A DNA stretch of 64,000 bases from Bacteroidales bacterium (GCA_016930375.1 JAFGGU010000070.1:1-64000), one strand, 5' to 3'; counted from the first letter of the stretch, positions 26,163 through 50,859 are shown. Notes: a model not told the origin generated them from the letters alone. A program made the numbers and translations.

Positions 26163-26531
26163 ATGAAAAAAGCAGCACTTGTTTTACTTGTACTTTTTGG
26201 TCTTGGATTGACCGGGGTATGGGCTAACAAAACTAAGGTGGAGATCAAAGCACCTGCAGAGGTAAAGGCAGGAACGGAAGTAACCATTACCCTTAATGTT
26301 ATTCATAAGGGTAATTCCAGGGCTCACCATACTGATTGGGTATATCTGACCGTAAACGGCAAGGAGGTTAAACGCTGGGAATACGACAAAAGTGCGCTTC
26401 CTTCCGGAGAAAACTTTACAGTGGAATTTAAACTTACTGCCGGTGAGGAACTTGTAATTAAAGCCGAAGGTAACTGCAATTTGCACGGATCAGCAGGTTC
26501 TGCCAATTTCACCGTCAAAGTAACAAAATAA
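26163..26531 (+). CDS. Exported desulfoferrodoxin/superoxide-reductase-like protein
   Basis: Signal peptide, then 'VIHKGNSRAHHTDWVYLTVNG...EELVIKAEGNCNLHGSAG', resembling the SOR iron-site region. Confidence 0.65.
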   Translation: MKKAALVLLVLFGLGLTGVWANKTKVEIKAPAEVKAGTEVTITLNVIHKGNSRAHHTDWVYLTVNGKEVKRWEYDKSALPSGENFTVEFKLTAGEELVIKAEGNCNLHGSAGSANFTVKVTK

Positions 26532-26801: not shown

Positions 26802-27236
26802 ATGAATAAGAAAGAACTGATTTGCCGGACCGAAACGCAGGTGAGATTCAGCGAGGTCGATTCCATGGGAGTTGTATGGCATGGTAATTATGTCAGGTAC
26901 TTTGAGGACGGCCGTGAAGCTTTTGGCAACCTTTATGGCATCAATTACATGGATTTTTATCGTGTAGGCGTAATGATACCCATTGTGAAAATAACCTGCG
27001 ATTATAAAAAACCGCTGAAGTACGGTGATACTGCCATCATCGAAACCCGTTTCGTAAATTGCGAAGCCGCCAAGCTGCAGTATGATTATACCATCTATCG
27101 AAATAGTCCCGACGATATTGTGGCTACCGGTTCCACCCTCCAGGTTTTTCTGAACCGGGATATGGAACTTCTGCTGGACCTGCCGCCCTTCTTTTATGAC
27201 TGGAAGAAAGCCCATAACCTCATCACCTATCCTTGA
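26802..27236 (+). CDS. Acyl-CoA thioesterase (4HBT/YbgC-like hotdog)
   Basis: 'VRFSEVDSMGVVWHGNYVRYFEDGREAFG'. Confidence 0.85.
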   Translation: MNKKELICRTETQVRFSEVDSMGVVWHGNYVRYFEDGREAFGNLYGINYMDFYRVGVMIPIVKITCDYKKPLKYGDTAIIETRFVNCEAAKLQYDYTIYRNSPDDIVATGSTLQVFLNRDMELLLDLPPFFYDWKKAHNLITYP

Positions 27237-28399
27237 GACAAGCTTTCGTCATATCGGATAACATCATTACATCACTTGGTTTTACAACCGGAGAGAATGC
27301 GGCTGCTTTGAAATCAGGACAAACAGGCATTGAGATGCATGATGACCGACGGCTTGCTCCATCTCCTTTTTGGGCATCCCTTATAGACAACCGGGCATTG
27401 CCGGACCATTTTACTGAATACGAAAATCCGGAGCAATTCACCCGTTTCGAACAAATGGTAATCTGCTCGGTCATGGGAGCTTTGAAAGATACCTCCATCC
27501 CTGTCTCCAGTGAGAGAACATTGTTCATTCTGTCCACAACCAAAGGTAATGTGGAGATCCTTGACAGCAAGTCCGGTTCCCGGTTTAATGAGGACCGGCT
27601 TTACCTGTGGAATTCGGCGTTACTTCTGCAGCAATTCTTTACATTGTTTCATAAACCGGTTGTAGTTTCCAATGCCTGTGTTTCGGGTGTTCTGGCAATA
27701 ATGATCGGAGCACGGTTCATTCGCTCCGGCGCATATGATCATGTGATTGTAACAGGCGCTGACCTGGTTACGGAATTCGTCGTATCGGGGTTTAATTCCT
27801 TCCTGTCCTTGTGTTCGGGTCCATGTAAACCTTTTGATAAAGACAGGCAGGGACTTTCACTGGGAGAGGGCGCGGGAACAGTTATTCTTTCTTCAGATCA
27901 GAAACTGTTTGGAAAAGGGGAAAGGATCATTGCAGGACCGGGAATTTCAAGCAATGATGCCAACCACATTTCCGGACCTTCCAGGACAGGAGAGGGACTT
28001 TACATTGCCATTAAGCGAACGCTGGAGATTGCAGCAGGTGAAAGTTTATCAGGGGAAGCGGCATCCGTGGATTATATCTCTGCCCATGGCACAGCAACTC
28101 CTTACAACGATGAAATGGAATCTATTGCCCTCACCCGGGCCGGCCTTCAGCATATACCGGTGAACAGTTTCAAGGGATACTGGGGACATACCCTTGGCGC
28201 GGCAGGAGTGATAGAATCAATTGCGGGGATTTATTCCATGCGCCACAACCTGTTATTTGGCACCCTGGGTTTTCATACCCCGGGAGTTTCGCATCCGATA
28301 CATGTGATCCGTGAAGCAAGGGAAATCCGGATTGATACCTTTCTGAAGATCGCATCGGGGTTCGGAGGAAGTAATGCTGCCCTGTTATTTTACAAATGA
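27233..28399 (+). CDS. Beta-ketoacyl-ACP synthase (C-H-H triad present)
   Basis: 'VVVSNACVSGVLAIMIGARFI', 'YISAHGTATPYNDEME', 'KGYWGHTLGAAGVIES'. Confidence 0.85.
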   Translation: MRQAFVISDNIITSLGFTTGENAAALKSGQTGIEMHDDRRLAPSPFWASLIDNRALPDHFTEYENPEQFTRFEQMVICSVMGALKDTSIPVSSERTLFILSTTKGNVEILDSKSGSRFNEDRLYLWNSALLLQQFFTLFHKPVVVSNACVSGVLAIMIGARFIRSGAYDHVIVTGADLVTEFVVSGFNSFLSLCSGPCKPFDKDRQGLSLGEGAGTVILSSDQKLFGKGERIIAGPGISSNDANHISGPSRTGEGLYIAIKRTLEIAAGESLSGEAASVDYISAHGTATPYNDEMESIALTRAGLQHIPVNSFKGYWGHTLGAAGVIESIAGIYSMRHNLLFGTLGFHTPGVSHPIHVIREAREIRIDTFLKIASGFGGSNAALLFYK

Positions 28400-29046: not shown

Positions 29047-29304
29047 ATGGAACAACTGATAGCAAAACTAAAAAATGAGATTATTGAGGTTCTGAACCTT
29101 TCAGAGATGTCGCCGACTGATATTGATGAAAATGCCCCTCTTTTTGTTGAAGGATTGGGTCTCGATTCAATTGATGCACTGGAACTGATTGTTCTTCTTG
29201 AAAAAAATTATGGCCTGAAATTGGGAACCGCTGAAGAAGGAAAGAAAGTCTTACGATCAGTCCGATCCATGGCTGAATTCATCACTGAGAATAAGAAGGG
29301 ATAA
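29047..29304 (+). CDS. Acyl carrier protein
   Basis: 'LFVEGLGLDSIDALELIVLLEKNYGL' phosphopantetheine motif. Confidence 0.92.
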   Translation: MEQLIAKLKNEIIEVLNLSEMSPTDIDENAPLFVEGLGLDSIDALELIVLLEKNYGLKLGTAEEGKKVLRSVRSMAEFITENKKG

Positions 29305-29317
29305 AACCTCCTATACT

Positions 29318-30523
29318 GTGCCGCAAAGAGTATTCGTTACAGGTTTGGGTATCATTTCTGCTATCGGCTCCAATGTAAAGGAGGTGATGGATTCCCTGAA
29401 AGAAATGCGGACCGGTGTGGGTCCTCTTACACGTATTGATTCGATTTACAAAGATGATATTCCGGTGGGAGAGATCAGGGCTTCCAACCGGGAGTTATTG
29501 GAGGAAGTTTCACCGTCTGCCGGGGCTTACTATTCCCGCACCGCTCTTTTGGGTTTAATTGCTGCCAGGCAGGCCTTCGCGCAAGCCCGTTTCAGCGATT
29601 CTGGAAATCTCCGCACAGGTCTCATTTCCGGAACAACCACCGGTGGCATGGACAGAAGTGAACATTTCTACCAGGCCTATCTGAAAGACAACCACAAAGG
29701 AAGGATCCGGGATATTATCGGTCATGATTGCGGTGACAGCACCGAAAGGATAGCAGATAACCTTGGCATAAAGGACTTTTTGTCCACCATCAATACTGCC
29801 TGCTCCTCTTCAGCCAATTCCATCATGCTGGCAACACGCATGATCAGACAGGGGAAACTCGACAGGGCAGTGGCGGGCGGATCGGATGCACTTACTCTCT
29901 TCACGCTGAACGGATTCAACAGCCTGATGATACTCGACAAGCAGCCATGTCGTCCTTTCGATGAAAACCGCAACGGATTGAACCTGGGCGAAGGAGCAGG
30001 TTTTCTGGTGCTTGAATCCGAAGCATCCGTCATCCGGGAAAACAAACCTGTATTGTGCGAAATAAAAGGCTATGGAAACTCTTGTGATGCCTATCATCAG
30101 ACGGCATCCTCTCCCGAAGGACACGGCGCTTTCCTGGCCATGAAGAAAGCTCTTGAAACATCTCATCTTGCAGCGGAAGATATCAGCTACATCAATGCCC
30201 ACGGAACCGGAACGAAGAATAATGATCTGTCCGAAGGAAACGCCCTTGAAAAGCTGTTCGCGGGGAAAGTTCCCCCCTGCAGTTCAACAAAATCATATAC
30301 CGGACATACATTGGGTGCTTCCGGCGCCATTGAAGCGGTACTGAGCGTTCTTGCACTTCAATACGGCTGGATTTACCCGAACCTGAACTTTTCCCAAAAA
30401 ATGAATGAGTTGAGCTTTACCCCGGTGACGGGATTTTCAGCAGGATTGCCGCTCAGGCATGTCATGTCCAATTCCTTTGGTTTTGGCGGCAACAATTCTT
30501 CACTGATATTCTCAAAGTGCTGA
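29318..30523 (+). CDS. Beta-ketoacyl-ACP synthase (C-H-H present)
   Basis: 'INTACSSSANSIMLATRMI', 'YINAHGTGTKNNDLSEG', 'KSYTGHTLGASGAIEA'. Confidence 0.92.
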   Translation: MPQRVFVTGLGIISAIGSNVKEVMDSLKEMRTGVGPLTRIDSIYKDDIPVGEIRASNRELLEEVSPSAGAYYSRTALLGLIAARQAFAQARFSDSGNLRTGLISGTTTGGMDRSEHFYQAYLKDNHKGRIRDIIGHDCGDSTERIADNLGIKDFLSTINTACSSSANSIMLATRMIRQGKLDRAVAGGSDALTLFTLNGFNSLMILDKQPCRPFDENRNGLNLGEGAGFLVLESEASVIRENKPVLCEIKGYGNSCDAYHQTASSPEGHGAFLAMKKALETSHLAAEDISYINAHGTGTKNNDLSEGNALEKLFAGKVPPCSSTKSYTGHTLGASGAIEAVLSVLALQYGWIYPNLNFSQKMNELSFTPVTGFSAGLPLRHVMSNSFGFGGNNSSLIFSKC

Positions 30524-30524
30524 T

Positions 30525-31589
30525 ATGAAGGCATATATTAAAGGAGCAGCAATACTGTCACCCCAGAAAACCTTTGGTGAAAAGGGCTTCCCCGGAGAAG
30601 TAACCGACTATCATGGAGTCAGCTACCTGAAATGTATCGAACCTGCCTACCGTGATTTCATCGATCCGATGGTCGCCAGGCGTATGAGCCGTATCGTGAA
30701 GATGGGCGTCTGCAGTGCGCTGAAATGTATGCAGGATTCTGGGATTTCCATGCCCGATGCCATATTGGCTGGTACGGGCCTCGGTTGTCTCGAGGATACG
30801 GAAAAATTCCTGGGATCCGTTTATACCCACGAGGAAAAGCTGCTGAATCCGACACCCTTCATTCAGTCAACGCATAATACCATTGCAGGAGCCGTCGCCC
30901 TTGCCATTAAATGCCATAATTATAATGCTACCTATACACACCGGGGATTTTCTTTTGAAAGCGCCCTGGAGGACGCATTTCTGCACCTGGAAGAAAACCC
31001 TGAACTAAACCTGCTTGCGGGCGCCTTTGATGAACTGACAACGAATTCATACAACATCACCCGGCGGATGGGACTTTGGAAAAACCATCCGGTGAACAGC
31101 GCGGACCTGCTGAACTATCAAACCCGCGGAAGTCTTCCCGGTGAAGGTGTGGCTTTTTTCATGCTGGGCGGCAGGAAAGGTTCCGACATGGCCGTACTGA
31201 GATCGGTAAAGACTTTTTATAAACCGCACGGTTACCCGGAAATTGAATCCATTGTTGATCAATTTCTCAGGAATGAGGGTTTAACACCCGGCGATATCGA
31301 CCTGGTCATTGCCGGAATAAACGGAGATTTTGCCACTGACCGGGTTTACTATCAATTGAAGGAGGGTGTACTGGGAAATAGACCATTTGCCTGGTACAAG
31401 CACCTGTGCGGTGAATATGATACCTCATCATCGTTTGCCCTGTGGCTGGCTTCGGTAATTTTGAAGGACCAACATGTGCCTGACTGCGCATTGCTGGAGG
31501 ATATTGCACCGGTTGGAATTGAAAGAATATTGATATACAACCATTTACGAGAGAATAATCACGTCCTGTATTTAACAGAGAGATGCTGA
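30525..31589 (+). CDS. KS-like / chain-length-factor-like protein (no catalytic Cys)
   Basis: KS fold, but the active-site region reads 'YNATYTHRGFSFESALEDA'; similar in style to APE ApeC-type proteins. Confidence 0.7.
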   Translation: MKAYIKGAAILSPQKTFGEKGFPGEVTDYHGVSYLKCIEPAYRDFIDPMVARRMSRIVKMGVCSALKCMQDSGISMPDAILAGTGLGCLEDTEKFLGSVYTHEEKLLNPTPFIQSTHNTIAGAVALAIKCHNYNATYTHRGFSFESALEDAFLHLEENPELNLLAGAFDELTTNSYNITRRMGLWKNHPVNSADLLNYQTRGSLPGEGVAFFMLGGRKGSDMAVLRSVKTFYKPHGYPEIESIVDQFLRNEGLTPGDIDLVIAGINGDFATDRVYYQLKEGVLGNRPFAWYKHLCGEYDTSSSFALWLASVILKDQHVPDCALLEDIAPVGIERILIYNHLRENNHVLYLTERC

Positions 31590-32359
31590 ATTACAGAAAC
31601 ACCCTTGTTGTATTTTCACTTGCCCTGGCAGGCGTTGCAGTGACTGATATTTTCAAACCGGTCAGCGTATGGCTGTACATTGGCATTGTTCTTGCCGTGA
31701 TATCGCTGTTGACCTGGGGTTCGATCAGGATTCAGGCGGACTTTTATCTTCGGTCCGTTTGTTCCGGCGACCGGAACATCAGGGCAGTAAGTATCACTTT
31801 TGATGACGGACCCGATGGCTTGGTAACACCCATGGTGTTGGATATTTTAAAAGAAAATAAGGTGAAAGCGGCTTTTTTCGTTGTCGGTCAGAATGCTGAA
31901 AAGCATCCTGAGATTCTGGAGCGGATCGACAGGGAAGGCCATATCATTGGTGGACACAGCTATTCTCATCACTTTTTCTTTGATCTGTTTTCATCGCGGA
32001 GGATGAAAAAGGAAATGAACCATACCGCGAAAGTTATTTTTGACATTACCGGGAAAAATATCAGGCTTTTCAGGCCACCCTATGGAGTCACAAATCCTAC
32101 AGTTGCCAGGGTTGTTAAAGAACTGAAGCTTACTTCAGTGGGTTGGAGCCTGCGATCAAAGGATACTGTGATCCAGGATGACAGCGCACTGCTGAAAAGG
32201 ATCCAAACCAGACTGAAACCCGGGGATGTCCTGCTGATGCACGATTGCAAAGCTTGGACTGTCAACCGGCTGAAATCCCTGGTAAAGTATCTGCAGGATA
32301 ATGGGTATATGGTGAAAGAGATTGATCAACTATTAAATATTGAACCTTATGTCAGGTAA
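31583..32359 (+). CDS. Polysaccharide deacetylase family protein (NodB-like)
   Basis: 'VSITFDDGPDGLVTPMVLDIL', 'GHSYSHHFF', 'RPPYG'. Confidence 0.88.
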   Translation: MLNYRNTLVVFSLALAGVAVTDIFKPVSVWLYIGIVLAVISLLTWGSIRIQADFYLRSVCSGDRNIRAVSITFDDGPDGLVTPMVLDILKENKVKAAFFVVGQNAEKHPEILERIDREGHIIGGHSYSHHFFFDLFSSRRMKKEMNHTAKVIFDITGKNIRLFRPPYGVTNPTVARVVKELKLTSVGWSLRSKDTVIQDDSALLKRIQTRLKPGDVLLMHDCKAWTVNRLKSLVKYLQDNGYMVKEIDQLLNIEPYVR

Positions 32360-32993
32360 TCTCAGATTGATTTTCATGATGTTATTTAGTATTCCGGCTT
32401 TCAGTGTTTTATGCCAGGTACCCGGTACACCCATGAAGGATATTTCCGGTTTTAAGGAAAAACTGGTTACCATGTCAGACAAAGTGAATACCATCGAAAG
32501 CGATTTCGTACAGGAAAAGGACCTCAGCATCCTGGCCCATAAAATCGTTTCCCAGGGTCGTTTTTGCTATAAGAAGGAAAACAATATCCGATGGGAATAT
32601 CTCCACCCATACAGGTATCTGATCATCATCAGCAATGGCAAGATATTCATCAAGGAGGATAACAACCAGAAGCAGTATGATATTCAGAGCAACAAGATGT
32701 TCCAGGAGATGAATAAATTCATCAGCGGTTGCATCCAGGGTGATATTCTGAAAAATGAAAAAGACTACAAGGTGGGGTATTTCGAAGATGATAAAAGCTA
32801 CTATGTAAGTTTGGTTCCCATTTCAGAAAAAATGCGTGAAATGCTCAATGAGGTCCGGATCTGGTTTAGCCGGAATGATCTCACGGTTTCAAGAATAGTT
32901 ATGATGGAAGCTGGAGGGGATTATACAAAAATTGATTTTACCGGGAAAAAGCTGAATACCGATATACCGCTTGAAAAATTTAGTTTTAGATAG
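32340..32993 (+). CDS. LolA-like outer membrane lipoprotein carrier protein
   Basis: 'TIESDFVQEKDLSILAHKIVSQGRFCYKKENNIRWEYLHPYRYLIIISNGK'. Confidence 0.85.
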   Translation: MNLMSGNLRLIFMMLFSIPAFSVLCQVPGTPMKDISGFKEKLVTMSDKVNTIESDFVQEKDLSILAHKIVSQGRFCYKKENNIRWEYLHPYRYLIIISNGKIFIKEDNNQKQYDIQSNKMFQEMNKFISGCIQGDILKNEKDYKVGYFEDDKSYYVSLVPISEKMREMLNEVRIWFSRNDLTVSRIVMMEAGGDYTKIDFTGKKLNTDIPLEKFSFR

Positions 32994-33684
32994 GTTTGAT
33001 TTGTTGGGCGTAGTTTCAAACTACGCCCAGCATCGGGCGAGTCTTCTTCTGCTGCTGCTGCCGCTGCTGCTCAATTCTTGCTCCCTTTCTCTCTTCCCGG
33101 GTTATCACCGGCAGGCTGAGACCGATGCAGTTGCCCCGGCATCATGGTTTCAGTCGGATTCATCTCATTTCCTGTTTAACACGAAGATTGACCTCATGAA
33201 AGACCATTTCAGCGGCCTGATGGTCGTGAAGCCATTTCCTGACAGTTCATACCGGGTGGTTTTCCTTACCGAGGTAGGATTGAAGATTTTCGATTTGGAG
33301 TTTATGCCCGACCGCCAGGTGAAAGTTCACTACATGATGGACGCCATGAACAGGAAAGCATTGGTCAATACCCTGTCCAACGACATCAGCCTTGTTTTGA
33401 TGAACGGACTGCAGCGGCTTCAACCGGAAGTACTGGGACTAAAAGATTCACATGACCTGGTTTTCAGGTTTAAAATCGGGAGCAGGAAAAACTGCTATTA
33501 TGTCGCATCACAAAACAACCGGCCATACCTGGTCAGACAAGTGGCAGGAATCAGCCGTAAAGTCACGGCTGACCTGTATGGAAATCCACATGCCGGAATT
33601 GACTCGGTAAAAATCAAACATGATAATCTCCGGTTGGCCATAAGTCTCTACCGGATAATTGAAAATCCCCATGCTGCTGAATAA
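32971..33684 (+). CDS. Lipoprotein, DUF3261/ApeN-like (start uncertain)
   Basis: 'LLLLLLPLLLNSCSLSLFPGYHRQ' lipobox; position after LolA-like as in APE clusters. Confidence 0.6.
   Translation: MKNLVLDRFDLLGVVSNYAQHRASLLLLLLPLLLNSCSLSLFPGYHRQAETDAVAPASWFQSDSSHFLFNTKIDLMKDHFSGLMVVKPFPDSSYRVVFLTEVGLKIFDLEFMPDRQVKVHYMMDAMNRKALVNTLSNDISLVLMNGLQRLQPEVLGLKDSHDLVFRFKIGSRKNCYYVASQNNRPYLVRQVAGISRKVTADLYGNPHAGIDSVKIKHDNLRLAISLYRIIENPHAAE
33006..33028. repeat. 23-bp perfect palindrome GGGCGTAGTTT-C-AAACTACGCCC
   Basis: Read directly; at the LolA-like/lipoprotein gene junction. Confidence 0.85.
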
Positions 33685-34072
33685 ATTGTACACCCTGTCA
33701 TCTCTTGAATTATCGAAGGAGAAGGATAAAATTACCGCTTATATTCTGTTGAACAGGGAGCACCCGGTCTTTGAAGGCCATTTTCCGGGCAATCCAATAC
33801 TTCCGGGTGTCTGCACCGTTCAGATCATCAGGGAATTATTGGAAAAGTCCCTGGAAAAGGAGTTGTTGCTTGCCAGAGCCGGCAATATCAAATACCTGGG
33901 ATTTATTAATCCCTTTACAACCAGCGAAATCCAGTTTGAATTGGTTTTAAAGAATTTGGAAACAGGGGCACTGAGTTGCTCCGCCTCGGTTTCGGCAGGG
34001 GGAACAGCACTTTGTAGTTTCAAAGGGGAATATTTTGCTTCCCCAGTATCCTCATCTCACATTCCGCAATAA
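33659..34072 (+). CDS. 3-hydroxyacyl-ACP dehydratase (FabZ/ApeI-like hotdog)
   Basis: 'HPVFEGHFPGNPILPGVCTVQII'. Confidence 0.82.
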   Translation: MKIPMLLNKLYTLSSLELSKEKDKITAYILLNREHPVFEGHFPGNPILPGVCTVQIIRELLEKSLEKELLLARAGNIKYLGFINPFTTSEIQFELVLKNLETGALSCSASVSAGGTALCSFKGEYFASPVSSSHIPQ

Positions 34073-34481
34073 CACGATTCTTACAGAAAACTTTCCCCGT
34101 CACGATCGTAAAACCCACGATCTCGTTTTCCACCATGATCTCCGATTGAATTTCCGAGTTGACAGGGGGCAGGGAAGAGATCACCAGGTTTTTAATAGCG
34201 CCTATATAACCTTCATTTACGGAACCGCTGTTCATTTTATTCCGGTAACCTGTAAAGGCTGCCGCAGTCTGTGCGATGAACTCGATGAGCCCCGATTCAC
34301 GAAGGAAGCCTTTTTCGGAAAAAAGGTTCGTGGCTTTAATGTAAAGACTACCTTTTGCCGATCGGTCATCGGCGTAAACCAGCCGGTCGATCATCTGCAT
34401 CGGCGGACGCTGTGGAATGAGATCGGTTATGTTTAAATCGGAAGGGTTCATGTTTTCCAAAAATTGTAATAATTGAACCAC
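34020..34481 (-). CDS. Second hotdog dehydratase (ApeP-like)
   Basis: 'ITDLIPQRPPMQMIDRLVYADDRSAKGSLYI...GLIEFIAQTAAAFTGYRNK'. Confidence 0.78.
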   Translation of the reverse strand: MVQLLQFLENMNPSDLNITDLIPQRPPMQMIDRLVYADDRSAKGSLYIKATNLFSEKGFLRESGLIEFIAQTAAAFTGYRNKMNSGSVNEGYIGAIKNLVISSLPPVNSEIQSEIMVENEIVGFTIVTGKVFCKNRVIAECEMRILGKQNIPL

Positions 34482-35338
34482 TGGTAAGGATACTGTTCTA
34501 TCTTCTCCTCCATGGCGGTTATATATCCTGTGATGATGTTCTTCAGCATATCATCTCTTTTGGCAGGGCTTAACTGCAGGTCATAACGCTTTGGAGGCGT
34601 GGCATAAAAATGGTACCTGTATTTGCTGTCTTTCATGGCAAAGACAAAGGAAACCGGCACACCGAACTTCATGGCCAGGTAAAACGGTCCCGTTGGGAAA
34701 CTGGTCTTTTCTCCCAGGAATTCACACCTCATTGTTTTGCTTCCCGGCATGAAGCGGTCTCCGTGCATGCATATGATTTCATGATCTTTCAGAGCTTTGC
34801 TGATTTCATACACGTGATCATTATCCTCCCCAACGGGAATGATGTGAAAACTTTTACGCGTAAAAGCCGACAGGTATTCTTTGATTTTCTGATGCTCGGC
34901 ATCCAGCATAATGATATTGACTTTGGTATCAAGGCGCTCCAGCAAATGACCAGCCATTTCAAAATTACCGATATGCGCACTGATGAGCAGTCCGCCTGAT
35001 TTATCATTCACCAGCTGCTTCAGATGGTCCTCTCCGTCGAAATTGAAACTAAACCTGGGACTAAATCCTCCCATGACTGCAAATTTGTCGAGCAATACCT
35101 GGCCGAAAACGTAGTAATTCCTGTAAATTGCCAGTACTGACCTGTAAGCGCCGAATCCGAGTCTACGGTGGTAGAAATAATAAATATTTCTGAATGAAAC
35201 GGGATTAAAAGCAAAAAAGTAAAACGCCACAAATCGCAGCAGGAAATAGGCAAAAGGAAGACCGAGGTACTTTAATACGGTGATAAAGATCCTGTAACCG
35301 ACTATACCACCCCGGGTTTTGCCTTTCCATTCAGCCAC
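34448..35338 (-). CDS. LpxL/HtrB-family lipid acyltransferase
   Basis: 'GGLLISAHIGNFEMAGHLLERLDTKVNIIML', 'GDRFMPGSKTMRCEFLGEKTSFPTGPFYLA'. Confidence 0.85.
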   Translation of the reverse strand: MAEWKGKTRGGIVGYRIFITVLKYLGLPFAYFLLRFVAFYFFAFNPVSFRNIYYFYHRRLGFGAYRSVLAIYRNYYVFGQVLLDKFAVMGGFSPRFSFNFDGEDHLKQLVNDKSGGLLISAHIGNFEMAGHLLERLDTKVNIIMLDAEHQKIKEYLSAFTRKSFHIIPVGEDNDHVYEISKALKDHEIICMHGDRFMPGSKTMRCEFLGEKTSFPTGPFYLAMKFGVPVSFVFAMKDSKYRYHFYATPPKRYDLQLSPAKRDDMLKNIITGYITAMEEKIEQYPYQWFNYYNFWKT

Positions 35339-35344
35339 AACAGG

Positions 35345-35593
35345 CTATTTCTTGTTTATACAATTGGAAATGTATCCGTACAGATCGTCCAGTGTTCTGA
35401 TGGCAGTCATTTCTTCGCCTTTCAGTGTAAGGCCGAATTCCTTCTGAACGATAACAGCAATGTCAACAAAATCAAGACTCTCGAGTCCTAAATCGTCTTT
35501 AAGATGCGCCGAGGGTATAATTTTCGCTTCATCAATTTCAAATTCCTCGATCAGAAAAGTCTTGATAATCCCCGCAATTTCTTCTTTCGTCAT
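35345..35593 (-). CDS. Acyl carrier protein
   Basis: 'HLKDDLGLESLDFVDIAVIVQKEFGL'. Confidence 0.9.
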   Translation of the reverse strand: MTKEEIAGIIKTFLIEEFEIDEAKIIPSAHLKDDLGLESLDFVDIAVIVQKEFGLTLKGEEMTAIRTLDDLYGYISNCINKK

Positions 35594-35625: not shown

Positions 35626-36846
35626 TTACTTATATTTTTTGATAATAAGTGTTGAGTTGGTGCCCCCGAACCCAAATGAATTCGAAAGGAAAGTGTTGAA
35701 TTCCCTGTGGGTGGTTTTGGTAACAATATTTAACCTGGCTGAGAATTCATCGGGTTCTTCAAAATTAATATTCGGCGCAATAAAGGAATGTTGCATCATC
35801 AGCATGGAATAAACCACTTCACTGGCTCCTGCCATCCAAAGTTCATGCCCGGTCATCGATTTGGTAGATGATACGAGGGGTTTAAAACTCCCGAAAACCT
35901 GATCCAGTGCTTTTGCTTCGTTTTGGTCCCCGATAGGTGTTGATGTAGCATGTGCGTTGATGTAGTCGATTTGGTCCGGTGTAACCCGGGCATCCCTTAA
36001 GGCCATGTCAATAGCTCTGACGGGTCCATCCACATCGGGTACCGATATATGCTTTCCATCAGAAGAGAAACCGTAACCGACAATTTCTGCCAAAATAGGT
36101 GCTCCTCTTTTAAGGGCGTGGTCCAGGCTTTCTATGATCACGGTTGCTGCACCGCCACTCGGGACAAGGCCGTCCCTGTTTTTGTCGAACGGGCGAGAAG
36201 CCTTTTCCGGGGCAGATTCAAGCTTTGAAAATGCACCCAGTGCGTCAAAACTTCCCACACAGAAAAGGTTGACTTCTTGCGAACCGCCACAGATTATCAT
36301 ATCCTGGTAGCCGTGCCGGACCATATGAAAACCCATGCCGATGGCATGAGAGCCACTGGCACAGGCACCGCTGAGCGTAAAGTTCACGCCCCTTAGCCGG
36401 AAGATAACCGACAGGTTCATGGTGACGGATGAATTCATCGATTGAAAAACAGCTCCTGATCCAACCATGGTCGTATCCCGTTTTTCGCGGATGATGTCGG
36501 CGCTCTGGATGACGGATGGTGTGGAGCTGTCGTTACCGAAAATGATACCGACTTCGTGATTATCAAAATAGGCTTCACCGAGATTTGCATTTTTCAATGC
36601 TTCAGAAGTAGAAACATAAGCATATTCCGCATGATCGGGCATGCAAACCCGTGCCCGCCTGTCGAGAATTCCCTTTAAATTAGGCCTCTCAAGTTTGCCT
36701 GTAAGCCCTGACTGATAACCATAGGATTTCCTGATTTCATCCAGAACAATTCCGGATTTTCCCTGGTAAAGAGCGTTTTTTACCTCCTCCAGATTTTTTC
36801 CGATGGAGGAGTAAATTCCGATGCCGGTGATGACAACCCTGTTCAT
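35626..36846 (-). CDS. Beta-ketoacyl-ACP synthase (C-H-H present)
   Basis: 'FTLSGACASGSHAIGMGFHMV', 'YINAHATSTPIGDQNEA', 'KSMTGHELWMAGASE'. Confidence 0.92.
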   Translation of the reverse strand: MNRVVITGIGIYSSIGKNLEEVKNALYQGKSGIVLDEIRKSYGYQSGLTGKLERPNLKGILDRRARVCMPDHAEYAYVSTSEALKNANLGEAYFDNHEVGIIFGNDSSTPSVIQSADIIREKRDTTMVGSGAVFQSMNSSVTMNLSVIFRLRGVNFTLSGACASGSHAIGMGFHMVRHGYQDMIICGGSQEVNLFCVGSFDALGAFSKLESAPEKASRPFDKNRDGLVPSGGAATVIIESLDHALKRGAPILAEIVGYGFSSDGKHISVPDVDGPVRAIDMALRDARVTPDQIDYINAHATSTPIGDQNEAKALDQVFGSFKPLVSSTKSMTGHELWMAGASEVVYSMLMMQHSFIAPNINFEEPDEFSARLNIVTKTTHREFNTFLSNSFGFGGTNSTLIIKKYK

Positions 36847-36867: not shown

Positions 36868-37596
36868 TTATGTATATAATCCGCCATTTACCGAAATCAC
36901 CTCGCCTGTAATGTAGGATGCCTTTTCAGAAGCCAGGAAACAAACGGCTTCTGCAACCTCTCCGGGCAGGCCAAAACGATTAAGTGGTATAAGATTCTTC
37001 AGTTCATCTTCATTCAGGTCTTTCGTCATATCGGTTTTAATGAAACCGGGTGCAACCGCGTTGACCGTTACGCGTTTCTTGCCAATTTCCTGGGCCAGCG
37101 CCTTGGTGGCTCCTATTATGCCGGCTTTGGCGGCCGAGTAATTCACCTGACCGGGGAGTCCTTTTAATCCGGACAGGGAAACTACGTTGACTATCCTGCC
37201 GTATTTTTTTACCAGCATGTTTTTGAGGAGAAAACGGGTAACATAAAAGAAACCACCCAGGTTGGTATCAAGAACATCTTGCCAGTGGCTGTTTTCCATC
37301 CATATCATCAGGTTATCTTTCCTGATTCCGGCATTATTCACGAGAACTTCAATATATTCATCGGGGTTTTCCACCTGCCATTTGCCAAGTACATTTTCAA
37401 CCTGTGCATGATCAGCCACATCGAACTTCAACAGGGCACCAGAATTGCCGGCCTCATGAACCCGTTCAAGGGTCTTGCCCGCTTCTTCCTCATTGGCCAG
37501 ATAGTTAATGAGTACATGGTAACCCATTTCGGCCAATCGGACACAAACTGCTCTTCCAATTCCTCTTGAACCTCCAGTCACAAGCGCGTACTTCAT
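36868..37596 (-). CDS. 3-oxoacyl-ACP reductase (FabG-like SDR)
   Basis: 'ALVTGGSRGIGRAVCVRLAEMG', 'NNAGI', 'YSAAKAG', 'VNAVAPGFIKTDM'. Confidence 0.93.
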   Translation of the reverse strand: MKYALVTGGSRGIGRAVCVRLAEMGYHVLINYLANEEEAGKTLERVHEAGNSGALLKFDVADHAQVENVLGKWQVENPDEYIEVLVNNAGIRKDNLMIWMENSHWQDVLDTNLGGFFYVTRFLLKNMLVKKYGRIVNVVSLSGLKGLPGQVNYSAAKAGIIGATKALAQEIGKKRVTVNAVAPGFIKTDMTKDLNEDELKNLIPLNRFGLPGEVAEAVCFLASEKASYITGEVISVNGGLYT

Positions 37597-37618: not shown

Positions 37619-39160
37619 TTAATTAATTTTAATAAATAAACTGCAAAGGTAGTCTTTAATTCTCTTTATTTCAACATATTTTATAGTATCCTCCGTGAAT
37701 CGTGGTACGATATTCCTCAACACCCGGTATTTTTCACGGTTATAACCGGATAACCTGGGTTCATAGGACAGGTAATCAATGGCCTGTATGAGGGTTATCA
37801 GCTCAATTGACAAGACCTGGTAGGTATTGTCGATTACTTTCCGTGCAAACTGCGCCGAATTTGTGCCCATACTTACGATATCCTGATTGTCATTGTTGTT
37901 GGATATGCTGTGTACGTAATTTGGGAATGATAAGGTTTGGTTTTCTGCAACAGTTGAAGTAGCAGTGAACTGAGCACCCTGCATACCGAAATTAACTCCC
38001 AGTTTACCCAGGTTAACAAATGGCGGCAGTTTATTGTTCAGTTTATCGTTCATCAGGTAATTTATCTGTCTCTCAAGCAACATGGATAATTTGGTGATGG
38101 CAATTTTCAGCTTGTCCATTTCAAAAGACACGTAATCGCCATGGAAATTGCCGCCATGAAAGATGTTGCTGTTTTTGGCATCGATTACAGGATTATCGCT
38201 AGACGAATTGGCCTCATCGAGCAGCACCTTTTCAGCTGCTTCAAGGGTATCCAGTATTGGTCCCAGGATCTGGGGAACACACCGAATGGAATAATACTCC
38301 TGGACCTTATCGGCAATCACATATTCCTTACCCTGCTTACCATTAAAAAAATGATCTTCCCTTTTTCGGATCAGCTTACTGTCATGCAGGATCATTCTCT
38401 CCAGTTCGGCAATCCTGTTTTGTCCGTGATGTTTCTTAACCTGGTTCAGCTCCGCGGAAAAGTAATCATCAAATGACCTAACAATTTCATTGATCATCGA
38501 AGCCGCTGTTACTGCCCAGTAAATTAGATTTCTGGCATGCATCAGGTTGAAAATGCCTGTACCTGTCATGAAACAGGTGCCGTTGATCAGTGATAAACCT
38601 TCACGGAGATGAATCGAAATGGGTTTGAGATTATGCTGAGCAAAGGCCTCCGCGGTAGGCACTATTTTCCCTTGGTAAAAAACCTCTCCTTCACCGATCA
38701 GGGCCAGGGCTATATGGGCAAGCTGAACCAGATCACCGCTTGCACCAACGCCGCCATGTTCGGGTACAACAGGAGTAATCTGAAGATTTATCAGACCACA
38801 GATCAATACCGGCACTTCGGGGTGAATTCCGGAAAATCCGTGTGAAAAATTATTCAGCAGGGTAATCATGGCAGATCTCACATAAACAGGATCCACAGGT
38901 TCACCGCATCCTGAGGCATGGCTCCGGATGGCATTATAATGAAGCTTCAGCCGGTCAGCTTCATCAATCCTGTATTGTGCCATGGGTCCAAGCCCGGTAT
39001 TGATGCCGTAAATAATTTTATCCTTATGGAATGTTTCGAGAAAAACATGGCTTTTTTGAATTCTTTCCAGTGCCTGCGGGTGAATCCTGAGCTCTTCATT
39101 ATCCAATAAAACGCGCTGATAATCATCCAATGTTATTCTTCGATCGCCTATCGTCAGCAT
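37619..39160 (-). CDS. Aromatic amino acid ammonia-lyase, tyrosine ammonia-lyase-like
   Basis: MIO motif 'GGVGASGDLVQLAHIAL'; 'YGINTGLGPMAQYRI', 'REDHFFNGK', 'EYYSIRCVPQILGP', 'NIFHGGNFHGDYVSFEMDKLKI' recall the Flavobacterium johnsoniae enzyme of flexirubin loci. Confidence 0.88.
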   Translation of the reverse strand: MLTIGDRRITLDDYQRVLLDNEELRIHPQALERIQKSHVFLETFHKDKIIYGINTGLGPMAQYRIDEADRLKLHYNAIRSHASGCGEPVDPVYVRSAMITLLNNFSHGFSGIHPEVPVLICGLINLQITPVVPEHGGVGASGDLVQLAHIALALIGEGEVFYQGKIVPTAEAFAQHNLKPISIHLREGLSLINGTCFMTGTGIFNLMHARNLIYWAVTAASMINEIVRSFDDYFSAELNQVKKHHGQNRIAELERMILHDSKLIRKREDHFFNGKQGKEYVIADKVQEYYSIRCVPQILGPILDTLEAAEKVLLDEANSSSDNPVIDAKNSNIFHGGNFHGDYVSFEMDKLKIAITKLSMLLERQINYLMNDKLNNKLPPFVNLGKLGVNFGMQGAQFTATSTVAENQTLSFPNYVHSISNNNDNQDIVSMGTNSAQFARKVIDNTYQVLSIELITLIQAIDYLSYEPRLSGYNREKYRVLRNIVPRFTEDTIKYVEIKRIKDYLCSLFIKIN

Positions 39161-40093: not shown

Positions 40094-40101
40094 TATATTT
40101 G
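40094..40101 (+). promoter_or_regulatory. Candidate -7 box TATATTTG for the GT2/MMPL genes
   Basis: Exact TAnnTTTG; implies the CDS start is ATG 40126 or 40135. Confidence 0.4.
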
Positions 40102-40125
40102 CAGCCTGTTGCAGAAAAACAAAGC

Positions 40126-41286
40126 ATGGTCGGCATGAACTGGTGTGTTGTGATTCCTACTTTCAACAATGCAAATACGCTGGAAAAGGTAATTCAGGAT
40201 GTATTGCAGTATACCGGTCATGTAATCGTTGTGAATGACGGATCCACCGATAATACACCTATGGTTCTTCAACGGTTCCCCAACATCATCACTGTAAGCT
40301 TTTTCCGTAACAAGGGGAAAGGTTTTGCGCTCAGGAAAGGATTTGAAAGGGCACTTCAGGAGGGTTATACGCATGCTGTAACACTGGATTCGGACGGACA
40401 GCATTACGCATCCGACATCGAAAAAATCATCCGGGAAGCTGAAACATCTCCCCAAACTCTCATTGTCGGCAGTCGTACTCTCCCCCGGGAGAAGCTGCGG
40501 AAAGGCAGTGGCTTTGCCAATAAATTCTCCAACTTCTGGTTCAGGTTCATTACTGGTGTTACTTTGCCGGATACGCAATCCGGTTTTCGCCTCTACCCGC
40601 TGGAAATGATCAAAAATATCCGGTTTGTCACCCGGAGATATGAATTTGAACTCGAAGTTCTGATACGGTCAGCGTGGAAGGGTATTCAGCTGATCGGCAT
40701 TCCAATCCAGGTGTATTATCCTGCCAGGGCGGAACGCGTAAGTCATTACCGGCCGTTTACAGACTTTATGCGGATCAGTCTCCTGAATGCTATATGTGTG
40801 ATCATTGCCCTTTTCTATGTCAAACCATTTTCTTTCCTGCAGTACCTGAGAAAGGAAAGTATCAAGGGATTTCTTCGGAAACATGTTCTGCAAACAGGAG
40901 ATTCAGTTGCCAAAATTACTTTTTCAGTAATGCTTGGCGTGTTCATGGGTATTGTCCCCATATGGGGTTACCAGTTAATTACTGCGATAGCGCTTGCGTA
41001 CTTTCTCAGGTTGAACAAACTCATCGTTGCCGTTGCTGCCAATATCAGCATCCCCCCCATGATACCTTTTATCCTTTACCTGAGCTATGTTGCAGGGGGC
41101 ATTGTCCTTTCCGGCGATAATCATCTGTCCTTTAGCAGTGATATTTCCCTGACCTGGGTCCGGGACAACCTGTTTCAATATATTATCGGGAGTCTGATTT
41201 TCGCGGTGGTGGCTGCACTTTTTTTCGGTCTTCTGACGTATATTCTGTTGAAAGTGATTCGCAGAAAGCCTGCCCTAATCAACTAA
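40126..41286 (+). CDS. Glycosyltransferase family 2 fused to DUF2062-like membrane domain
   Basis: 'CVVIPTFNNANTLEKVIQDVL', 'VNDGSTD', 'LDSDGQH'; C-terminus 'FSVMLGVFMGIVPIWGYQLITAIALAYFLRLNKL'. Confidence 0.88.
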   Translation: MVGMNWCVVIPTFNNANTLEKVIQDVLQYTGHVIVVNDGSTDNTPMVLQRFPNIITVSFFRNKGKGFALRKGFERALQEGYTHAVTLDSDGQHYASDIEKIIREAETSPQTLIVGSRTLPREKLRKGSGFANKFSNFWFRFITGVTLPDTQSGFRLYPLEMIKNIRFVTRRYEFELEVLIRSAWKGIQLIGIPIQVYYPARAERVSHYRPFTDFMRISLLNAICVIIALFYVKPFSFLQYLRKESIKGFLRKHVLQTGDSVAKITFSVMLGVFMGIVPIWGYQLITAIALAYFLRLNKLIVAVAANISIPPMIPFILYLSYVAGGIVLSGDNHLSFSSDISLTWVRDNLFQYIIGSLIFAVVAALFFGLLTYILLKVIRRKPALIN

Positions 41287-41289
41287 CCA

Positions 41290-44200
41290 ATGGACAAGCT
41301 TTTTTTATATGTCTATCACTTCTTTCAGAAACGAAGACTTCGTCTTTTCATAATCATAACTCTTCTTACCGCTTTTGCCACTTTTCTCGCTTCACGGATC
41401 CGGCTTGAAGAGGATATTAACCGGATGATCTCGGGAGATGGCACACAGGGTCTTATGAGCCGGGTAGTAGAACAATCCAAAATGCTCGATAAGATCATCG
41501 TTACGGTCTCTGCTGCGGATACGACCAGGCCGCTCATTCCCGAGGAACTGATCCGTATTGGTGATCAGTTTGCCGACAGCCTGAACGCACAGGCCTTCGC
41601 TCCATTTGTTAAAGGTTTGACATACAGGATGTCTGACACACTTACGGAAGCACTTTTTGATATCGTGTACGAGAATCTTCCTCTTTTTCTGGAAGAAGAA
41701 GATTATTCGCGTCTTGATACCCTGCTCCGGCCTGAGAATATACAGGCAGCGCTGAACAATAACCTCAGGAGCCTGCTTTCACCGGCGAGTTTTACCATGA
41801 AACGGATAATTGTGCGCGATCCGGTCGGAATAGGCACCATGGCCCTGGGCCGTTTAGGTTCCTATCAGAATGATGAGAACTATACCCTGCTCGACGGATG
41901 CGTGTTTTCACGCGACAAGAAGCACCTGATGATGTTCATCAGCCCGGCATTGCCTTCGAATGAAACATCAGGGAATTCAGGGTTCGTTAAAAAACTCGGG
42001 CAGTTGGCGTCACAGGTCGCCGGTTCTTATGAAAACCAAGCCAGGATCGAATATTTTGGCTCCGCCATTGTGGCGGTCGGCAATGCTGATCGACTGAAGA
42101 GAGATATCCGGTTTACCCTTACCATTACAATAATTCTTTTATCCCTGATCATTACTTTTTCTGTAAAAAAGAAAAAGCTGTTCCCGTTCATCTTTCTTCC
42201 GGCTGTATTTGGCGGACTGGTTGCCCTGGCTTTCCTGTACCTGTTTCAGGGTAAAATATCTGTCATCTCGCTCAGCATTGGTTCGGTAATCATGGCCATA
42301 ACAGTTGATTACGCCCTCCATATCACAACCCATTATAAGCACAAGCACTCCATTATCGATACCATCAAAGACGTCTCCTTTCCCATCATTGTCTGCGGAT
42401 TTGCCACGGCATTTGAGTTCCTTACCCTGGTTTTCGTTTCCTCAGAATCGTTGCATGAACTGGGCATACTGGCGGCCATAAGCGTGTTGACCGCCGCCTT
42501 TTTTACCATGGTGGTGTTGCCTCATATCCTCGACGCCACACGTAGTGAAAAAGATGAGACAGAAGAGAAAAATTACCTTGAAAGGGTTTTGGATAAAATC
42601 ACCCTTTACAGCTTTCATAAAAACAAGCTTCTATTGCTTTTTATGGCGCTTGTCACAATACTCTCCCTGTACTATTTGAAACGGGTGGGTTTTGAAACCG
42701 ACATGATGAAAATGAATTACATGTCAGACGAGCTTAAAAAGACAGAGGAAAATCTGAACAGGATCAACAATGCCAAGCTGAACTCAGTTTACCTGGTGGC
42801 ACATGGAAGCAACATGCAAAAGGCGCTGATCAGCAATGAAAACGTGCTGAGAAAAGCTGATGCGCTCATTCAGCAGGGTGTCATCAAAAGTTATTCTTCA
42901 CCCAGTTCGCTTTTGATGTCCGATTCCCTCCAGCTTCAAAAGATTGATCGATGGAACAGCTTCTGGCAAAAAAAAGGGAAAGACCAGTTTTTGGAGTCAC
43001 TGGATGAGAAGGCCATTGCGGCAGGCTTTAAACCCAGTTCATTTGGTGAATTTTCCGGTCTCTTAAAAAAAGAGTTTTCAGTAGCGGATTCCGCCACCTT
43101 TAAAGCGCTGGAAAAAATCTTTTTTGTGGATAATATTTCGGTCACACCTTCGCTGGCCACCATTGTGACAATACTTAAGGTTGACAACAGAGGAAAGGAA
43201 CAGGTGACCGAAAGTTACGGCAGCATGGATGGCGTGGTAGTGATCGACCGCAAGTCCATCCTTTCCGGCATAGTGAATACCCTGGGTGAAGACTTCAGTT
43301 TCATTGCCAATGTGAGCCTCTTGTTAATTCTTGGAGTCCTGATCTTTGCCTTTGGTCGCATTGAACTGGGTGTGATCACTTTTATTCCGATTTTTTTCAG
43401 CTGGATATGGACGATGGGTTTCATGGGTTTTTTCGGCATCAGGTTCAACATCTTCAATATTATCATCTCTTCATTTATCACCGGTCTGGGTATCGATTAC
43501 AGCATTTACATCATGCAAGGCCTGGTACAGGGATATAAAACAGAAAACGCCAACCTTTTGTCCTACAAGACGTGCATCCTGATTTCAGTAATGATATCAA
43601 TTTCCGGAACAGGGGTTCTAATCCTCGCTCAACATCCCGCTTTGCATTCGATAGCCCTGATTTCCATAGTCGGATTACTTTCGGTGGTGCTGATTTCCTA
43701 TACTTTCGAGCCGGTATTCTTTTACTGGCTGGTTTCAAAAAAGAACCGGAAGCGTTTATTGCCGGTTACCTTATCAGATATTCTGCTCACCATCATCGTA
43801 TTTTCTATTTTTGTGACCGGATGCCTGATCATGAATCTCCTGCTCGGAATTGTGGTTTTACTTCCGCTTCCGTCCCGGAATAAGAAACTGATCATGCACC
43901 GGTGTATGGTTTTCTGGTGCAAGGTTCCGGTTTATGCCATGTTGCATATCCGCAAGAAGATCATTAACCTGGGCGGTGAAGACTTCAGTAAACCTGCGAT
44001 TATCATCAGCAATCACCAATCACACATCGACCTTCTTTTATTGCTGATGCTTCATCCGAAAATGATCGTTCTCACCACGAAATGGGTATGGAATAATCCC
44101 ATTTACGCACTGGTAATCAGATACCTTGATTACTACCCGGTATTGGGCGGCTATGAGGAACTTACCGATAAACTAAAAGCCAAAGTAAACGAGGGCTATT

Positions 44201-45153
44201 CCATCCTGGTTTTTCCTGAAGGAAGTCGTTCAGCCGATTCTTCCATCCGGCGCTTTCATAAGGGAGCCTTCCTGATGGCTGAAAAACTCGGGTTGGATAT
44301 GATACCCATTATTCTCCATGGTGCTGGTGATTGCATGAACAAGGGTGAGAACCATCTGCGGGGAGGATCCATCACCATAAAGATTTATCCGCGTGTTCAG
44401 GTTGGTGACAAAGCATACGGCGCAAATTACCACGAACGGACAAAATTGATGCTTGCATTCTACCGCAGGGAATATGCCATATTAAAGGAAGAATTTGAAA
44501 CACCCGATTATTTCAGGAAAAAGCTGATCCGCAATTATATTTACAAGGGACCGGTGCTGGAATGGTATACACGCATTAAGCTGTCACTCGAGAATAACTA
44601 TAACCTTATAAACAGCTTTGTGCCACGCGAGGCAAAAATAGTTGACATAGGCTGCGGATACGGTTATTTGTCCTACCTGCTCAGCTTTGTCTCCCCAAAA
44701 CGAAAGATAACAGGCATTGACTATGATGCGGATAAGATTGATATGGCCAACCATTGCATTTCCAAAAATGAACATGTGAACTTTTTCGCAGCGGATGCAA
44801 TTGAATTCTCCTATGATTTTGCCGATGTTTTCATTCTGAGTGACGTGCTGCATTATATGTCCCACGAAAAACAGGAGGTGCTGCTCGAGAAGTGCATCCG
44901 GAATCTGAACCCGAAGGGTGTTATCATTGTGCGGGATGCTGACCGTGATATGGAAAAAAGGCACAGGGGTACAAGATACACTGAGTTTTTCTCCACCCGT
45001 TCGGGTTTTAACAAATCCGATCAAAACAGGTTGTTCTTCCTTTCAGGAAAAACCATCCGGGAATTCGCTGCAAAGCACAACTTGCAGACCCGGGTGATTG
45101 ACAATTCGAGGCTCACTTCAAATGTTTTGTTTGTACTGAACAATATCCGCTGA
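41290..45153 (+). CDS. Three-domain fusion: MMPL/RND exporter + PlsC-type acyltransferase + SAM methyltransferase
   Basis: 1287 aa; 'GSVIMAITVDYALHITTHYKHK' and 'ITGLGIDYSIYIMQG' (MMPL), 'ISNHQSHIDLL...FPEGSRSADSSIRRFHKGAF' (PlsC), 'KIVDIGCGYGYLSYLLSFVSPKRKITGIDYD' (methyltransferase). Confidence 0.92.
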   Translation: MDKLFLYVYHFFQKRRLRLFIIITLLTAFATFLASRIRLEEDINRMISGDGTQGLMSRVVEQSKMLDKIIVTVSAADTTRPLIPEELIRIGDQFADSLNAQAFAPFVKGLTYRMSDTLTEALFDIVYENLPLFLEEEDYSRLDTLLRPENIQAALNNNLRSLLSPASFTMKRIIVRDPVGIGTMALGRLGSYQNDENYTLLDGCVFSRDKKHLMMFISPALPSNETSGNSGFVKKLGQLASQVAGSYENQARIEYFGSAIVAVGNADRLKRDIRFTLTITIILLSLIITFSVKKKKLFPFIFLPAVFGGLVALAFLYLFQGKISVISLSIGSVIMAITVDYALHITTHYKHKHSIIDTIKDVSFPIIVCGFATAFEFLTLVFVSSESLHELGILAAISVLTAAFFTMVVLPHILDATRSEKDETEEKNYLERVLDKITLYSFHKNKLLLLFMALVTILSLYYLKRVGFETDMMKMNYMSDELKKTEENLNRINNAKLNSVYLVAHGSNMQKALISNENVLRKADALIQQGVIKSYSSPSSLLMSDSLQLQKIDRWNSFWQKKGKDQFLESLDEKAIAAGFKPSSFGEFSGLLKKEFSVADSATFKALEKIFFVDNISVTPSLATIVTILKVDNRGKEQVTESYGSMDGVVVIDRKSILSGIVNTLGEDFSFIANVSLLLILGVLIFAFGRIELGVITFIPIFFSWIWTMGFMGFFGIRFNIFNIIISSFITGLGIDYSIYIMQGLVQGYKTENANLLSYKTCILISVMISISGTGVLILAQHPALHSIALISIVGLLSVVLISYTFEPVFFYWLVSKKNRKRLLPVTLSDILLTIIVFSIFVTGCLIMNLLLGIVVLLPLPSRNKKLIMHRCMVFWCKVPVYAMLHIRKKIINLGGEDFSKPAIIISNHQSHIDLLLLLMLHPKMIVLTTKWVWNNPIYALVIRYLDYYPVLGGYEELTDKLKAKVNEGYSILVFPEGSRSADSSIRRFHKGAFLMAEKLGLDMIPIILHGAGDCMNKGENHLRGGSITIKIYPRVQVGDKAYGANYHERTKLMLAFYRREYAILKEEFETPDYFRKKLIRNYIYKGPVLEWYTRIKLSLENNYNLINSFVPREAKIVDIGCGYGYLSYLLSFVSPKRKITGIDYDADKIDMANHCISKNEHVNFFAADAIEFSYDFADVFILSDVLHYMSHEKQEVLLEKCIRNLNPKGVIIVRDADRDMEKRHRGTRYTEFFSTRSGFNKSDQNRLFFLSGKTIREFAAKHNLQTRVIDNSRLTSNVLFVLNNIR

Positions 45154-49335: not shown

Positions 49336-50859
49336 TTAATTCAAGTACTGTTTTGTAAATTCATTCCATTCGTTGTACAGGTTGCCGATAACGCGGGGAA
49401 ATTTATGCTGTCCGCCTTCTTTGCCTTTAAACTTCATCCAGTCATAGAAAGCCTTTACCGGTATTATTTCTACAATTACATCCCGCAAAGCCGCCTTGCG
49501 TTCCACCGCATAGTCATCATTCAAGGTACACAGTGTCTGATCTAGCAATTGTCTCAGGCCATCGCGGTCACTGAACGGCTGGTCGGTTCCAATAAACCAC
49601 TTATGCGCAAATAACTTGTTATGAGGAATTCCGGCTACTGTAAACTCTTTGATAACGATATTCAGCTTTTCTGAAATGATGCTGATCGCTTTTGTCATGT
49701 TATCCACGCTGAGATGTTCTCCGCAAAGACTAAGAAAATGTTTGGTTCTTCCCGCTATCACAATTTCAAAATCCTTAACCGAAGTAAAACGGATTGTATC
49801 GCCGATCAGGTATCGCCAGGCACCTGCATTGGTGCTGATCAGCAGTGCATAATCCTCATTTTCTTTCACCCTGTCAATTAAAAGTATTTCCGGATTGTCC
49901 ACCAGTATGCCATCGGGTTTGAAATTGCTTGTATTAAAAGGAATAAATTCAAAAAATATTCCGTTGTCCAGAACCAGTTGCATGGCATGGTCCCTATAGC
50001 GCTGATAGGCTATGAATCCTTCGGAGGCCAGGTAGGTTTCGAGGTAATAGACCTCCTTACCCATCAGCTTTTCAAAACTCTTTTTATACGGAGAAAAATT
50101 AACACCGCCATAGGAATAAACCCTGAAATCAGGCCAGATGTCATGAATGGTTTTCAAGCCGTGATAATCAATGATTCTTTCCAGGAGGATCTGCACCCAG
50201 GCCGGCACACCTGAAATTCCTCCGATATCCCAATCCTTCGCCTTTTTAGCGATTTTATCGATCTTTGTATTCCAGTCCCTTTCCTTGGCAATAATTCCGG
50301 GTTTATAAAATGAGCCAAACCAGAAAGGCAGTCGGCTGGCCAATATGCCGCTCAGATCGCCCTCAAAATATTTTTCCATTTTTACCAGTGATGTACTGCC
50401 ACCCAGCATCAGCACACTTTTTTCATAAAAATAGGGGGGAAGATCAAATTCAGCCAGGGACAAGAGTTGTCTGATCCCTACGCGTCTGATCCCCTTGATC
50501 ATATCGTGGGTCAGAGGCACCCGTTTGCTCGAATCGTTGGATGTCCCGGATGTCAAACCAAAGAACTTCACTTTCCCTGGCCAGGTAACATCTGGTTTTC
50601 CTTCCAGAAGTTTATACCAATATTGTGCAAATATTTTCTCATAGTCAAAAACCGGAACTGCTTTCTGAAAACCAGGCAGTATATCACCGGATTTCAAAAT
50701 TTCATGGAATCCGTAAGCATGTCCAAATTCAGTGTTCTTTGCCTTTTGAATCAGCTTACGAAGGGTTTCCTCCTGAATCCTCATACTAAGCTGCTTTTTC
50801 TCGAGGTTACTCTTTTTCTTTTTAATAACCTCCTGAAGGATAGAACCTACAATCGCCAT
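49336..50859 (-). CDS. GH3 auxin-responsive promoter family protein (acyl-adenylating fold)
   Basis: 'GLTSGTSNDSSKRVPLTHDMIKG', 'AGAWRYLIGDTIRF', 'IAGRTKHFLSLCGEHLS'. Confidence 0.88.
   Translation of the reverse strand: MAIVGSILQEVIKKKKSNLEKKQLSMRIQEETLRKLIQKAKNTEFGHAYGFHEILKSGDILPGFQKAVPVFDYEKIFAQYWYKLLEGKPDVTWPGKVKFFGLTSGTSNDSSKRVPLTHDMIKGIRRVGIRQLLSLAEFDLPPYFYEKSVLMLGGSTSLVKMEKYFEGDLSGILASRLPFWFGSFYKPGIIAKERDWNTKIDKIAKKAKDWDIGGISGVPAWVQILLERIIDYHGLKTIHDIWPDFRVYSYGGVNFSPYKKSFEKLMGKEVYYLETYLASEGFIAYQRYRDHAMQLVLDNGIFFEFIPFNTSNFKPDGILVDNPEILLIDRVKENEDYALLISTNAGAWRYLIGDTIRFTSVKDFEIVIAGRTKHFLSLCGEHLSVDNMTKAISIISEKLNIVIKEFTVAGIPHNKLFAHKWFIGTDQPFSDRDGLRQLLDQTLCTLNDDYAVERKAALRDVIVEIIPVKAFYDWMKFKGKEGGQHKFPRVIGNLYNEWNEFTKQYLN

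Follow-up and report, generated by a model that had tools for sequence, protein, structure and literature searches.

Aryl-polyene and flexirubin clusters are among the most widespread natural-product clusters in bacteria. The gene fusion described here bears on the route by which these pigments travel to the outer membrane. In the aryl-polyene (APE) cluster of E. coli CFT073, the RND transporter ApeM, the lysophospholipid acyltransferase ApeD and the FlxJ-like ApeB are separate genes, and a proposal for that system combines acylation or attachment of the ApeD type with export by ApeM and Lol-like transfer (PMC8253772). Flexirubin has been located in the outer membrane, according to the main text of PMC3992019, and a LolA2/LolB2 pair of carriers is confined to flexirubin loci (PMC11885536).

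Our analysis of a 64,000-nucleotide stretch from a Bacteroidales bacterium (GCA_016930375.1 JAFGGU010000070.1:1-64000; "the window" below means this whole stretch) found one-to-one counterparts for most of the E. coli cluster genes, with the difference that exporter, acyltransferase and a methyltransferase are joined in one open reading frame (41290-45153, + strand; ATG start, 1287 amino acids, 0 internal stops). The domain order claimed in the original prediction is borne out by the reading frame and by Pfam matches that all lie above curated cut-offs: MMPL (PF03176) in two stretches (E=4e-13), Acyltransferase (PF01553) at residues 900-1008 (E=3e-17) and Methyltransf_31/25/11 at residues 1115-1218 (E about 1e-12). 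The three motifs it had named are where it placed them, NHQSHID at residues 908-914 (44011-44031), FPEGSRS at residues 975-981 (44212-44232) and DIGCGYG at residues 1119-1125 (44644-44664).

The exporter part (residues 1-825; 41290-43764, +) is ApeM-like and HpnN-like according to PF03176, hhalign, phmmer and hydropathy, and has 12 strong hydrophobic helices in the 1+5 and 1+5 pattern of RND proteins, the weaker hydrophobic segments at 610-628 and 915-933 being discounted from this count. The PlsC/ApeD-type acyltransferase part (residues 826-1045; 43765-44424, +), identified by PF01553 and hhalign, carries a PlsC-type N-terminal membrane helix at residues 840-858; the domain had been correctly recognised, but alignment with ApeD and TmPlsC moves its start from about 43866 to about 43765, some 100 bases earlier. 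It combines an intact HX4D motif (909-914), an intact FPEG motif (975-978) and the PlsC fold, as PlsC-type (AGPAT) enzymes do, and matches TmPlsC (5kym) both in sequence (E=2.2e-20) and in the fold of an AlphaFold model compared by Foldseek (TMt 0.83). The methyltransferase part (residues 1061-1287; 44470-45150, +) has the GxGxG motif I, the acidic post-I residue and the Rossmann-like fold of class I SAM-dependent methyltransferases, together with a DVLHY motif. The AlphaFold model of residues 826-1287, for which an alignment with 44 relatives was used, has high confidence (pLDDT 91, pTM 0.86), and its methyltransferase portion matches class I methyltransferases in Foldseek. Since 12 helices in the RND pattern leave both ends of the exporter on the same side of the membrane, the acyltransferase and methyltransferase domains most likely face the cytoplasm.

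The surrounding genes support the assignment to an APE-type cluster, part by part. A GT2 glycosyltransferase-DUF2062 gene (40099-41286, +) ends 3 nt before the fusion and matches the glycosyltransferase half of E. coli ApeJ, a glycosyltransferase-acyltransferase that is represented in the window by two separate genes, the other being an LpxL-type acyltransferase (34448-35338, -) that matches its acyltransferase half. A GT2 gene lies immediately upstream of the fusion in 54 of the 72 assessable named loci among the matches listed. On the minus strand are the tyrosine ammonia-lyase FlxA (37619-39160; NF053541, 795.6 bits, cut-off 700), the ketoreductase FlxB (36868-37596; NF053542, 410 bits, cut-off 340), an ApeR-like ketosynthase (35626-36846), an ApeF-like acyl carrier protein (35345-35593) and a dehydratase-like ORF that recurs in related flx clusters (34020-34481). 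The plus strand carries an ApeI-like, FabA-like dehydratase (33659-34072), an ORF in the LolB-like position conserved after LolA in related clusters, with no Pfam match (32971-33684), an ApeL-like LolA carrier (32340-32993; PF03548), a polysaccharide deacetylase (31583-32359), an ORF resembling ketosynthase/chain-length factors (30525-31589) directly after an ApeO-like ketosynthase (29318-30523), an ApeE-like acyl carrier protein (29047-29304), a further ketosynthase (27233-28399) and an ApeK-like thioesterase (26802-27236). FlxY (691.8 bits, cut-off 520) and DarB (551.5 bits, cut-off 550) lie on another contig of the same genome (G000, C78:6703-20754). With FlxA, FlxB, FlxY and DarB of the flexirubin (aryl-polyene plus dialkylresorcinol) pathway all present, this organism would by its gene content be a producer of a flexirubin-type pigment, and in this genus the pathway seems to occupy two separate loci. 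Elsewhere in the window we noted a small secreted-looking protein upstream of the cluster, with a desulfoferrodoxin-like match (26163-26531, +), a 4205-residue ORF composed largely of immunoglobulin-like and PKD domains that is probably a giant surface protein (11430-24047, -), and a GH3-family protein whose best NCBIfam match is the lyso-ornithine lipid synthetase OlsH (49336-50859, -; 328 bits, cut-off 620), similar genes being found near the fusion at three other loci (L091, L105 and L106).

The fusion is genuine and widespread. A full-length, stop-free frame was found in eight of the nine other genus members searched, the ninth (G003) being split by a contig end, and the same frame length and domain order recur at 47-76% identity in genus mates and at 30-40% in other families. 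The ORF is thus not split, and frameshift, mis-assembly and chance read-through can be ruled out by the single open frames in so many genomes. Within a sample of 396 genomes from the phylum, 34 have a match at E<=1e-60 and 31 have the long fusion, defined as a match that spans 1160 or more model positions within a single reading frame; in G434, which is among the 31, the matched stretch contains two stops, and the methyltransferase part is degenerate in most of them. A scan of named genomes returned at least 80 loci, with Chitinophaga filiformis DSM 527, other Chitinophaga, Mucilaginibacter, Fulvivirga, Flavihumibacter and Terrimonas among the matches listed. That the three activities are usually separate proteins, as was first supposed, therefore holds for E. 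coli-type APE clusters but not for the flexirubin clusters of Bacteroidota, where the fusion is the common form. The architecture also has a name in public NCBI annotation ("trifunctional MMPL family transporter/lysophospholipid acyltransferase/class I SAM-dependent methyltransferase"), so that what is new here is one more example of it. The original prediction would have been refuted by an architecture both common and already characterised; this is largely the case, the architecture being common, although the main texts of the literature searched contained no biochemical or genetic characterisation of the fusion or of any close homologue, and none of them names it. Distances between the domains are correlated (Mantel r 0.66-0.79), and the exporter tree conflicts with the C-terminal-part tree at some well-supported branches, so that domain replacement may have occurred in some lineages.

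The architecture is ordinary, and the mildly interesting, less expected part of the protein is a second methyltransferase that appears dispensable. In the window protein DIGCGYG is intact and the domain looks active, whereas elsewhere the fusion persists although its methyltransferase end has degenerated or disappeared. Two families (f23 and f24) that belong to a related class-level group, probably relatives of Flavobacterium and Chryseobacterium, still have the domain, but DIGCGYG is replaced, for example by HLANDYGQ, DVLHY is gone and the proteins are about 60 residues shorter. This degenerate domain is homologous to the intact one (profile comparison, E=9e-15), and on the exporter tree its bearers group together in a single clade. 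Another such change lies within Bacteroidales (L015, L040), with partial decay also in L115, L119 and L128. Within the f23/f24 clade the methyltransferase evolves faster than its neighbours (mean identity in f24 of 47% versus 66%), and its dN/dS, 0.08-0.22 against 0.03-0.09 for the other domains, indicates a sequence that is relaxed yet still constrained. Truncated forms have also arisen: in G281 (L144, 8515-11502) the exporter is fused directly to the pseudo-methyltransferase and the acyltransferase is lost, and in G157 and G387 the exporter stands alone, in the former beside a separate FlxJ-type methyltransferase. In-frame stops inside the methyltransferase region at L013/L142 (G025) and L040 (G434) look like recent decay.

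What the fused methyltransferase does is the point at which explanations diverge. It could supply the C-methyl group of the pigment ring, so that one protein would methylate, acylate and export flexirubin. Flexirubin does have a methionine-derived ring methyl (PMC3992019, main text), the fused domain is the sole methyltransferase recognised in the window cluster, the 85%-complete genome to which the window belongs gave no FlxJ match (nor did two other genus members), and in a plasmid cluster of Aureispira anguillae the fused methyltransferase is intact while the stretches examined contain nothing FlxJ-like. Yet the fused domain is not recognisably FlxJ- or ApeB-like: the FlxJ model (NF053543) is absent from the best 25 NCBIfam matches of the window protein, BLAST against FlxJ-like proteins gave nothing better than 6e-4, and hhalign against ApeB gave a probability of only 37%. 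The FlxJ family consists of separate proteins with a dimerisation-like domain of their own, and shares with the fused domain its class of reaction and its occurrence in flexirubin clusters. C. filiformis, whose pigment is the classical methylated flexirubin, has within one cluster a FlxJ-family methyltransferase (546 bits, cut-off 560) and an intact fused one, and both also occur in seven of the nine other genus members and in all five intact-methyltransferase genomes of the phylum sample that lie outside the genus. Among the degenerate-methyltransferase genomes of that sample FlxJ was found in 3 of 25 (Fisher p=0.0004 against the 5/5, a test that is suggestive only, since it is uncontrolled for relatedness and G051 is scored as degenerate by family and length alone). 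Because many genomes carry both proteins, and each is present somewhere without the other, the two are different and vary separately. Feeding of d3-methionine to Chitinophaga pinensis, as described in the main text of PMC3992019, labelled the polyene ring with one +3 Da methyl group only, which would leave a second ring methylase without a visible product. We thus consider ring methylation by the fused domain unlikely. The variant in which a ring-A methylase decays where the ring is unmethylated is weakened by the FlxJ-family methyltransferases found beside intact fused ones, and a halogenase replacing the methyltransferase in flavobacteria-like clusters found no support, the ORF between FlxA and FlxB (L149:8124-9338) having no NCBIfam match.

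The nearest solved sequences to the fused methyltransferase are phosphoethanolamine methyltransferases, which hints weakly at a lipid head group as its possible substrate. Taken further, and together with the HpnN-like exporter, an acyltransferase whose nearest solved structure is a lysophosphatidate acyltransferase, and about 13 named loci among the matches listed that show no recognised flx or dar gene in the stretch examined, this likeness would make the protein a general exporter of phospholipids or hopanoid-type lipids that happens to lie beside pigment genes and does not act on the pigment. Against such a role stand the close association of the fusion, in many lineages and on plasmids, with genes for GT2, an oxidoreductase, a C45 acyltransferase and FlxY and with flx core genes, its homology to ApeM and ApeD, and its co-occurrence with DarB; we regard that role as improbable. 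Of the 31 long-fusion genomes in the phylum sample 30 have DarB, and all three genomes with truncated forms lack it, a hint that the fused form and resorcinol-esterified pigment belong together. Two Bacteroidales genomes, G023 and G025, are exceptions, having the fusion with a missing or degenerate methyltransferase but no DarB.

We favour, with reasonable confidence, a reading of the ORF as the inner-membrane export component of the flexirubin (aryl-polyene) pathway, bearing a lipid acyltransferase and a methyltransferase on its cytoplasmic C-terminus. The PlsC/ApeD-type domain would acylate a pathway lipid at the inner leaflet, using a polyene or fatty acyl group donated by an ACP or CoA; the attached MMPL domain would extract the completed pigment lipid from the inner membrane, and the cluster's own LolA/LolB-like carriers would receive it for the outer membrane. 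The fused methyltransferase would be an accessory step distinct from FlxJ. More tentatively, it could be a second methyltransferase of the flexirubin pathway that has become, in f23 and f24, a conserved pseudo-methyltransferase with a structural or regulatory part in the exporter, kept in G281 despite the loss of the acyltransferase. In Flavobacterium johnsoniae, a plasmid with Fjoh_1078-1089 restored pigment in a mutant (PMC3992019, main text); lolB2 is Fjoh_1084 and lolA2 is Fjoh_1085 (PMC11885536), and from their positions and the gene order in G060 the fusion would, by synteny, be Fjoh_1078.

The original prediction had also suggested that acylation, methylation and export are physically coupled. 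Coupling of acylation to export is plausible in view of the conserved fusion, although the MMPL-only versions in clusters without DarB (G157, G387) indicate that export does not need it. An obligatory coupling of methylation is not supported, as the fused methyltransferase is distinct from FlxJ, no longer has its SAM motifs throughout one clade and is missing from some genomes. An ApeD-like/ApeM-like fusion found across the phylum makes a direct link between acylation and export testable in genetically tractable Bacteroidota, and the separately evolving methyltransferase end offers a natural experiment, FlxJ and the fused methyltransferase each being present or absent in different genomes.

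Set against described systems, the protein is closest in its parts to the E. coli pair, with hhalign matches to ApeM (E=2.9e-18) and ApeD (E=1.7e-14), but the E. coli cluster has no counterpart of the fused methyltransferase. With the hopanoid transporter HpnN it shares the MMPL/RND fold, and the nearest solved structures are 6wu0 (phmmer E=1.5e-14) and 5khn; its score of 115.5 against the 751.85-bit cut-off of the HpnN model nevertheless sets it apart, and HpnN is not known to carry an acyltransferase or methyltransferase domain. The gene neighbourhood matches the flxP-flxU exporter region of C. pinensis and F. johnsoniae, where main-text passages of PMC3992019 speak only of a "predicted exporter" and do not discuss a fusion; C. 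filiformis carries the same fusion (L072), and flavobacteria-like members differ from the window protein in their degenerate methyltransferase. Flexirubin-type clusters also occur on plasmids, in Aureispira anguillae (L169/L171, NZ_AP026868.1) and Persicobacter psychrovividus (L170, NZ_AP025298.1). The Aureispira protein (WP_264793640.1, plasmid pAUEa), to which NCBI gives the trifunctional name, has the three domains in identical order, aligns over its full length at 38.6% identity and likewise sits in a flexirubin-type cluster. Unlike the gene in the window, however, its gene is plasmid-borne, and about 10 kb, counted across the start of the record, separate it from the GT2/DUF2062 gene, which in the window immediately precedes the fusion.
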